Positions 60,783 to 62,434 of a stretch of DNA of 64,000 nt are shown one piece after another. Every line of letters begins with the position of its first letter. Position 1 is the stretch's first letter. Source of the stretch: Paracoccus haematequi (lineage in GTDB: Bacteria; Pseudomonadota; Alphaproteobacteria; Rhodobacterales; Rhodobacteraceae); NCBI GenBank assembly GCA_945881965.1, contig CAMCVS010000001.1:477402-541401 (forward strand), in the 5' to 3' direction. The notes under the pieces are model-generated. The model saw only the letters and a list, made by a program, of their open reading frames with translations, was not told the origin of the DNA and searched no databases. The translations under genes and the position numbers were made by a program.

Positions 60783-61439
60783 CTATTCCGCGCCGACCAA
60801 CAGCGTGTGCAGCGGCAGGAAAGGCCGGATTTCATCGGTCAGCGCCGCAATCACGCCCTGTGGCCCCGGCATCCAATAGCGCCCCAGCGACCGCATCGCG
60901 ATCAGGCTCTTGCGGCGCAGCAATTCGCCCTGCGGGTGATCCGCCACAAAGGGTTTCGGCACCCGCGCCAAGGGTTCGGCCATATGGTCGGACAGCACTG
61001 CGCCTGCGGCTGCTATCGCGTCCTGCACCGCGGCTCCGTGCGCGGCCACAAAGGCGCGATAGCGGGTCAGTTCCTCGCCCTTCAGCCCCAGAATCCCGCA
61101 GCCCAGCACGGTATCATCGGGTTCGACGCTGAAAAACAGCACCGGCGACAGCGGGCCGGGATCGAACGGCGACCAGACCATCTGCAACCATGCGTTATAG
61201 GGCGATTTATCCTTGGAAAACCGCACGTCGCGGGTGACGCGGAACAGCTTGGCGCGGTGCGGGGTGCCGGTCAGGCGGGTAATCTCGTCGGCCATGCCAT
61301 GCGACAACAGTTCGGCGGGGCGGCGAATCGCGCTGTCATACTGATCCTTGTGCGCCGCGAACCAGTCGCGCGTGTTATGCGCCGACAGGTCACGGAAAAA
61401 CCCGCGCGCCTCGGTCAGCAAGGCGTCAAAACCGTCCAT
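60783..61439 (-). CDS. DUF2461 family protein
   Basis: A 218-residue protein recognised as DUF2461 (TIGR02453-like): FFRDLSAHNTRDWFAAHKDQYD, KLFRVTRDVRFSKDKSPYNAW and LRRKSLIAMRSLGRYW. Its function is unknown. The start at 61439 has AAGGAAG at a good distance. An in-frame ATG at 61469 would add MAPAPKRKRP, made from a 19-bp tandem duplication, so the shorter start is preferred. Confidence 0.85.
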   Translation of the reverse strand: MDGFDALLTEARGFFRDLSAHNTRDWFAAHKDQYDSAIRRPAELLSHGMADEITRLTGTPHRAKLFRVTRDVRFSKDKSPYNAWLQMVWSPFDPGPLSPVLFFSVEPDDTVLGCGILGLKGEELTRYRAFVAAHGAAVQDAIAAAGAVLSDHMAEPLARVPKPFVADHPQGELLRRKSLIAMRSLGRYWMPGPQGVIAALTDEIRPFLPLHTLLVGAE

Positions 61440-61450
61440 CGGGCGCTTCC

Positions 61451-61488
61451 TTTTCGGCGCGGGGGCCATTTTTCGGCGCGGGGGCCAT
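61451..61488. repeat. Perfect 19-bp tandem duplication
   Basis: TTTTCGGCGCGGGGGCCAT occurs twice in a row (61451-61469, 61470-61488) at the 5' end of the DUF2461 gene. It duplicates a possible upstream ATG. Confidence 0.85.
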
Positions 61489-61596
61489 GGCGCGTGCCAC
61501 GACAATCACAGCGTCGCCTTACACGCCCCCTGCGACAAGACAAATCCTGTTTGGCGACAGATGCGAAAAGATAGCGCGCTATTCCGGCGCATTGCG

Positions 61597-61622
61597 AAAA
61601 AAACCCCGGCGCGGGGCCGGGG
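61597..61622 (-). terminator. Intrinsic terminator (minus strand)
   Basis: CCCCGGC (61622-61616 on the minus strand) pairs with GCCGGGG (61610-61604) around a 5-nt loop, followed by T7 (61603-61597). It ends the response-regulator transcript and/or the small RNA. Confidence 0.85.
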
Positions 61623-61671
61623 TCAGTCCAACAGGGAGGTGCATCTGATGACCCGCAGATGCGCCGGGATG
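61597..61671 (-). ncRNA. Candidate small RNA of about 75 nt, FnrL-controlled
   Basis: Between the response-regulator stop and DUF2461 the minus strand carries, in order: an FnrL box (61705-61718), a -10-like TCTAAA (61684-61679), a hairpin GCATCTG..CAGATGC with an 8-nt loop (61662-61641), an unpaired ACCTCCCTGTTGGACTGA (61640-61623) and a terminator (CCCCGGC/GCCGGGG, then T7). The inferred start near 61671 puts the FnrL box at about -40. The unpaired CCTCCC resembles anti-Shine-Dalgarno seeds of known small RNAs. No open frame is supported on this strand. The end points are inferred. Confidence 0.5.
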
Positions 61672-61704
61672 GGTTTGATTTAGACATGCGCGCGAAATGT
61701 GACT

Positions 61705-61718
61705 TTGATCTGTGTCAA
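61705..61718. promoter_or_regulatory. FnrL/FNR box
   Basis: TTGATCTGTGTCAA matches TTGAY-N4-RTCAA. It lies 30 bp after the response-regulator stop, in a region without a protein gene promoter on the same strand. Confidence 0.65.
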
Positions 61719-61747: not shown

Positions 61748-62434
61748 TCACGCCACCAAGCGGTAACCGCCCGATTCCGTAACCAGCAGGCGGGCATTGG
61801 ACGGATCGGGTTCGATTTTCTGCCGCAACCGGTAGATATGGGTTTCCAGCGTATGGGTGGTGACGCCCGCATTGTATCCCCAGACCTCGTGCAACAGCAC
61901 ATCCCGTGCCACGACGCCATCGGGCGCGCGATACAGGTATTTCAGAATGTTGGTTTCCTTTTCCGTCAGGCGGATTTTCTTGTCGTCCTCGGTGATCAGC
62001 ATCTTCATCGACGGGCGGAAGCTATACGGGCCCAACTGGAACACCGCATCCTCGGATTGTTCATGCGTGCGCAATTGCGCGCGGATCCGCGCCAGCAGCA
62101 CGGGAAACTTGAATGGCTTGGTGACGTAATCATTCGCGCCCGCGTCCAGCCCCAGAATGGTGTCCGAATCCGAATCATGCCCGGTCAGCATCAGGATCGG
62201 GCTTTTCACACTCTGCTTGCGCATCAGGCGGCACAGTTCACGGCCATCCATATCCGGCAGACCGACATCCAGGATCACCAGATCATAAATGCCTTCCTTG
62301 GCGCGTTTCATCGCGTCGCTGCCCGACCCGGCCTCGAACACATCGAAATCCTCGGTCATCACCAACTGCTCGCTTAGGGCCTCGCGCAGGTCTTCGTCGT
62401 CATCGACAAGCAATATCTTCTTGAGCTGCGGCAT
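61748..62434 (-). CDS. OmpR/PhoB-type response regulator, orphan
   Basis: A 228-residue regulator. The receiver keeps all key residues: D11/D12 (LLVDDDED), phospho-site D56 (LVILDVGLPDMDG), T84 and K106 (YVTKPFKF). The C-terminal winged helix has KIRLTEKETNILKYLYRA, THTLETHIYRLRQKIEPD and TESGGYRLVA. No histidine kinase is nearby, so its partner is unknown. The start at 62434 follows AGGAGG. It is divergent from ribA over a 151-bp gap. Confidence 0.95.
   Translation of the reverse strand: MPQLKKILLVDDDEDLREALSEQLVMTEDFDVFEAGSGSDAMKRAKEGIYDLVILDVGLPDMDGRELCRLMRKQSVKSPILMLTGHDSDSDTILGLDAGANDYVTKPFKFPVLLARIRAQLRTHEQSEDAVFQLGPYSFRPSMKMLITEDDKKIRLTEKETNILKYLYRAPDGVVARDVLLHEVWGYNAGVTTHTLETHIYRLRQKIEPDPSNARLLVTESGGYRLVA

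Follow-up and report, generated by a model that had tools for sequence, protein, structure and literature searches.

By its sequence, a real small RNA (sRNA) gene lies on the minus strand of the window, i.e., the whole 64,000-nucleotide stretch of DNA analysed here, and it is an ortholog of SorX, which is known from Rhodobacter. We estimate at about 80% the probability that this SorX ortholog is placed in the 3'UTR of cenR, is served by a separate FnrL class II promoter, carries a pseudoknot at its 5' end, and exposes a free anti-Shine-Dalgarno seed (Table 1).

Table 1. Features of the SorX locus and candidate target sites (window positions, unless a contig is named)
Feature	Position	Strand	Remark
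Response regulator of the OmpR family, cenR-type; R. sphaeroides ortholog RSP_0847	61748..62434	(-)	3'UTR host
FNR/FnrL box TTGACACAGATCAA, centre 61711.5	61705..61718	(-)	position conserved in relatives
-10 element TAAATC	61677..61682	(-)	conserved T-A pair at box +23/24
Predicted transcription start A, C at -1	61670	(-)	from conserved geometry
SorX sRNA, RF02784, full length	61597..61669	(-)	covariance model match
Putative pseudoknot stem S1, 5' strand CCCG	61665..61668	(-)	
Stem S2, 5' strand GCATCTG	61656..61662	(-)	
Putative pseudoknot stem S1, 3' strand CGGG	61652..61655	(-)	within S2 loop
Stem S2, 3' strand CAGATGC	61641..61647	(-)	
Anti-Shine-Dalgarno seed ACCTCCCTGTTGGA	61627..61640	(-)	unpaired, nearly invariant
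Intrinsic terminator CCCCGGCCCCGCGCCGGGG (61622-61604) and T7 (61603-61597)	61597..61622	(-)	
Seed complement, PreT/PydA-like oxidoreductase RBS	C1:601924 (L307)		candidate target
Seed complement, gentisate 1,2-dioxygenase-like gene RBS	C2:136231 (L308)		candidate target
Seed complement, OYE/FadH-like reductase RBS	C4:168386 (L309)		candidate target

The RNA matched the Rfam model of SorX (RF02784) with 77.4 bits (gathering score 46.6, E = 5.6e-19), and positions 1-73 of the 73 in the model were covered. Because of this match, the locus belongs to a known sRNA family and a new family was ruled out; the sequence-only reading, which did not take the locus for a known one, was mistaken here. For SorY, Betaproteobacteria toxic sRNA, anti-hemB, and NsiR1, the RNA fell below each Rfam cut-off, e.g., 27 bits against the cut-off of 111 for SorY (RF02651), a CCTCCC sRNA of Rhodobacteraceae. 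The gene was found between the response regulator and a DUF2461/TIGR02453 gene (60783-61505), with the regulator stop at 61748 and the SorX 5' end at 61669. The order of regulator and SorX was identical in R. sphaeroides (L110) and about 200 loci, and the cenR-type regulator orthologs showed 82-91% identity in 80 named contigs. RF02784 matches (E <= 0.001) were found in 382 of the 397 Rhodobacteraceae genomes sampled, and 314 exceeded the gathering score. A minus-strand sRNA gene had already been proposed from the letters of the window, and its named elements, including the strong intrinsic terminator with T7, were all found in their places; a discrete sRNA of ~74 nt is predicted. Loss of box and hairpin in relatives had been set beforehand as a reason to give up the gene, and box, hairpin, and terminator were all kept.

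SorX of R. sphaeroides (RSs2461) is transcribed together with RSP_0847, the promoter being of the RpoHI/RpoHII type. The RNA is trimmed to 116 nt and then, by RNase E, to 75 nt, and it represses potA in oxidative stress (PMC6238624, PMC9438474, PMC3320616). RSP_0847 is now named CenR (PMC9275681). Reviews class SorX as a type II, i.e., processed, 3'UTR sRNA (PMC7821165). The R. sphaeroides locus (L110) scored 88.8 bits, and its location corresponds to the published coordinate 2,598,224 (PMC6238624). The window RNA and R. sphaeroides SorX share the full-length sequence and structure model, the position in the cenR/RSP_0847 3'UTR, the seed core, and the terminator. They differ in origin and target as published, i.e., R. 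sphaeroides SorX is described as an RNase E product of the RpoHI/RpoHII transcript that targets potA.

The promoter elements were placed upstream of the SorX 5' end. The FnrL box had been called a perfect consensus; the box is present, but its left half is TTGAC and not TTGAT. Even so, it agrees with TTGAY-N4-RTCAA and with the FnrL-bound sites of R. sphaeroides. The -10-like element expected downstream of the box was confirmed as TCTAAATC, and its conserved T-A corresponds to 61682/61681. The predicted start lies 41.5 bp from the box centre, i.e., at class II distance, and a single base separates it from the 5' end of the Rfam SorX match. Thus, the earlier estimate of about 40 bp holds, with the pattern conserved in relatives, and the start proposed near 61671 is moved by one base. 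Two other uses of the box were rejected. The box does not act as an RNA hairpin, since the fifth pair is lost in its common form TTGAC....ATCAA, and, by inspection of the window sequence, a -10-like element serving the plus strand was not seen at class II distance.

Comparison with relatives was performed on 209 SorX loci behind the regulator, i.e., 144 genomes (window included) and 65 named contigs, with possible genome overlap between the two sets. In the 115 loci of the 144-genome set with enough 3'UTR, exact TTGA-N6-TCAA between the regulator stop and SorX was found in 42, against 0.3 in shuffles. When the box-bearing loci were aligned on the box, AG directly followed the box, TTTA occupied +21 to +24, and the favoured bases at the predicted start were C at -1 and A at +1. 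Therefore, the T-A of the -10 element falls at -12/-11 and the start at 41.5 bp from the box centre. The -10-like hexamer was located at box +22 in 59 loci, and the next highest offset had 31. A box with a class II-spaced -10 element was found in 72/209 SorX loci (shuffles mean 1.3, maximum 3), and in 43 of these 72 the predicted start fell on the SorX 5' end. Within the genus, the box was found at the same place in two of the three other genomes (L230 and L231); in the third, a clear SorX behind the regulator was not found. This comparative evidence points to an own FnrL class II promoter of SorX in a large minority of relatives. When up to one mismatch is allowed, 85/209 loci have an FNR box and 124/209 have none that is recognizable, and the box state changes about 40 times on the regulator tree. 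Therefore, FnrL control of SorX is not universal.

These counts bear on whether SorX in the window is purely a processed fragment of the cenR 3'UTR, i.e., a type II sRNA, with the FNR box a bystander or serving another gene. This explanation is improbable. It agrees with the RNase E dependence and the RpoHI/RpoHII co-transcription with RSP_0847 in R. sphaeroides, and with the 124 loci without a box. However, box, -10 element, and start are conserved together, the conserved -10 element lies on the SorX strand, and the box to -10 spacing stays constant although the distance from box to SorX ranges from 41 to 57. The FnrL peak reported at SorX in R. sphaeroides also speaks against it. Processing from the regulator mRNA had been named before as an alternative; it stands as the published origin of SorX and is unlikely to replace the FnrL promoter. 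From our analysis, RNase E processing of the cenR 3'UTR and the FnrL promoter probably coexist.

The peak comes from a 2014 ChIP-seq study of FnrL in R. sphaeroides, which reported FnrL bound at the putative promoter of RSs2461, i.e., SorX; the effect of FnrL on its expression was not measurable in that study, as the sRNA was absent from the array (PMC4263372). In R. sphaeroides (L110:1424-1472), a TTGCG-type box, TTGCGTGAGATCAA, overlaps the cenR stop codon and is followed by TATAAA at class II spacing, so the view that this species has no FNR box was ruled out. The box and TATAAA are consistent with the reported peak, and the FnrL class II promoter of SorX probably extends to this model species. 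The arrangement differs from that in the window. The predicted promoter in the window abuts the SorX 5' end, whereas the R. sphaeroides box and TATAAA are farther upstream, with the predicted start about 29 nt before the mature 5' end, and this start coincides with neither of the mapped 5' ends, i.e., of the 116-nt and 75-nt RNAs (PMC6238624). The publications compared here that name both SorX and FnrL draw no link between them, and the published descriptions of SorX compared here, a set outside which the primary paper (Peng et al. 2016) falls, mention neither an FnrL promoter nor a pseudoknot fold.

Of the regulators that may bind the box, FnrL is encoded in the window genome (3.2 Mb), carries N-terminal cysteines, and has a box beside its gene. 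FNR-type boxes numbered 27 in this genome, against 4 for the control (reversed pattern). There is only a small chance that another Crp/FNR protein, i.e., an NO-responding Dnr/NnrR or a CrpK-like protein, uses the promoter rather than FnrL. The genome encodes further HTH_Crp_2 proteins besides FnrL, Dnr sites have been described as indistinguishable from Anr/FNR-type sites, and CrpK has the same binding determinants as FnrL. Against this, the genome has FnrL itself and a box adjoining the FnrL gene, and the SorX box forms, TTGCG....ATCAA included, are those of ChIP-verified R. sphaeroides FnrL sites. Also, the CrpK ChIP-seq table, in the part consulted, names RSs0019 and not RSs2461.

Two side observations concern the promoters of relatives. 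Among the SorX loci without a box, 21 (from Tabrizicola, Fertoeibacter, and relatives; L192, L036, L168, and others) carry the motif GNCTTATTGTTGCCNGAWTC-N6-TAT 54-80 nt before SorX. It occurred in 0 box-bearing loci (shuffles 0.1), and it is possibly a second SorX promoter type; a CenR site (TGA-N8-TGA) does not fit as its source. In L048 and L054, the FNR box and the CCTCCCTGTTGGA core were kept but the S1/S2 fold was lost, and the RNA model begins as little as about 20 nt after the box.

The Rfam consensus of SorX has a single 5' hairpin, i.e., S2, and the terminator, and S1 is not included. Just before S2, nearly every sequence has CCCG/CCCC, complementary to the four bases that open the S2 loop (CGGG/GGGG). 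The elements follow the order S1a, a linker of 1-3 nt in most sequences, S2a, S1b, 4 nt, and S2b, which is the order of an H-type pseudoknot. The geometry is constant, i.e., S1 of 4 bp, S2 of mostly 7-8 bp, no gap, and a third loop of 4 nt, and the total S2 loop is 8 nt in 182/201 sequences. Strict 4-bp S1 pairing was found in 174/201 sequences, compared with at most 139 when loops were exchanged among sequences. At the informative S1 position, 177 of the 179 assignable sequences pair (G-C 117, C-G 51, U-G 9); the other S1 pairs are almost invariant. By co-change on tree branches, S1 ranked sixth among all site pairs; the five ahead of it were S2 pairs, and no unpaired pair ranked as high. This tree rests on ~430 nt, and many of its branches are weak. 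When the well-supported branches were taken by themselves, four informative pairs remained, which is not enough to reach significance. The covarying S1 helix, new relative to the Rfam structure, makes the 5' domain look like an H-type pseudoknot. Accordingly, the 7-bp hairpin read earlier at this place, GCATCTG/CAGATGC, is present but appears to be only half of the fold.

S1 and S2 may instead be mutually exclusive hairpins, and the 5' domain would then be a conformational switch rather than one pseudoknot. Both helices covary and each could form alone, and this possibility deserves some weight. It is nevertheless the less probable one, since the constant S1/S2 geometry is in keeping with an H-type pseudoknot of the classical kind. 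The minimum-energy structure predicted for the window RNA by itself has the 5' end paired with the terminator, and S2 does not form in it.

In the most likely explanation, FnrL drives SorX synthesis at low oxygen, the cenR mRNA yields SorX under stress, and the RNA blocks Shine-Dalgarno sites. FnrL bound at -41.5 would activate the SorX promoter, and transcription would run from the predicted start to the terminator. With its own FnrL promoter, a SorX of ~74 nt would therefore be possible at low oxygen without cenR transcription. The second supply, carried over from R. sphaeroides, would be cenR mRNA made under RpoH-type stress control and processed by RNase E. The 5' end would fold into the H-type pseudoknot (S1 CCCG/CGGG, S2 GCATCTG/CAGATGC), leaving ACCUCCCUGUUGGA unpaired, and this segment would bind Shine-Dalgarno regions and so block translation. 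The analysis shows the membership in the SorX family, the conserved box and -10 element with their spacing, the covariation of S1 and S2, an FnrL gene, and the complementary ribosome-binding sites; we infer transcription from the promoter, FnrL dependence, simultaneous pairing of S1 and S2, and repression of targets. A broader version is put forward tentatively, at slightly below even odds: across Rhodobacteraceae, SorX would have a dual origin, with the same 5' end coming from a primary FnrL-dependent transcript at low oxygen or, in oxidative stress, from cenR mRNA cut by RNase E. A 5' H-type pseudoknot would define and protect this end and leave an anti-Shine-Dalgarno seed exposed to the mRNAs of a conserved group of oxidoreductases.

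FnrS of E. coli is alike in being an FNR-driven sRNA, with repression of translation at low oxygen predicted for SorX as well. It differs in host locus and seed and has no sequence relation; RSs2461 was reported without similarity to FnrS (PMC4263372). 3'UTR sRNAs of type I, e.g., MicL, which have an internal promoter, resemble the window locus in the predicted promoter inside the mRNA 3' region. As SorX has been classed as type II (PMC7821165), the window locus would be both. The existence of such a promoter would reconcile two literatures, i.e., the FnrL ChIP-seq peak at RSs2461, which was not followed up, and the later SorX work on a stress-induced 3'UTR fragment. Low-oxygen and oxidative-stress inputs would then feed one sRNA, and the covarying pseudoknot would be a structural reason for the stable SorX 5' end.

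The anti-Shine-Dalgarno CCTCCC seed claimed for the RNA was recovered within a longer, nearly invariant core, ACCTCCCTGTTGG. Targets were searched in the window genome by pattern searches. Apart from SorX and a SorY-like paralogue, CCAACAGGGAGGT with at most one mismatch was found at four genome sites, and three of them are ribosome-binding sites that match the invariant seed. The three genes were named from sub-cut-off NCBIfam matches and our own reading, i.e., PreT/PydA-like oxidoreductase, gentisate 1,2-dioxygenase-like, and OYE/FadH-like reductase. The gentisate dioxygenase-like site was kept in 3/3 genus members examined (11-13 nt). In orthologs of the PydA-like gene, CCAACAG was found in 5/29 and CAGGGAG in 14/29, against 0/80 and 1/80 in cenR start regions. 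As a control, the cenR start regions are preferable because the second control set (SD-ORF) includes loci fetched for holding a seed complement. The OYE/FadH-like match was mostly confined to the window genome. In the start region of the best potA-like gene, ACAGGGAcGTG matches the seed partially; this match is not kept in orthologs, and the orthology of the gene to the R. sphaeroides target is uncertain. As a conserved seed target, potA is unsupported by the best potA-like orthologs compared. The seed-matched ribosome-binding sites are predicted SorX targets, and they give concrete candidates beyond potA.

Further SorX-like RNAs were found in the same genome. A SorY-like sRNA below the Rfam cut-off is placed after a LysR gene (L002:1473-1556, G000:C3), and its core, ACCTCCCTGTTGGACT, is identical to that of SorX. 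Thus, two sRNAs of the window genome share one seed, and the SorY-like paralogue could be the real partner of the seed-matched sites. A third SorX-like RNA, with 32.5 bits, CTTCCTCCCTGTCAGACT, and a terminator, was found at L003:1501-1568(-) (G000:C5).
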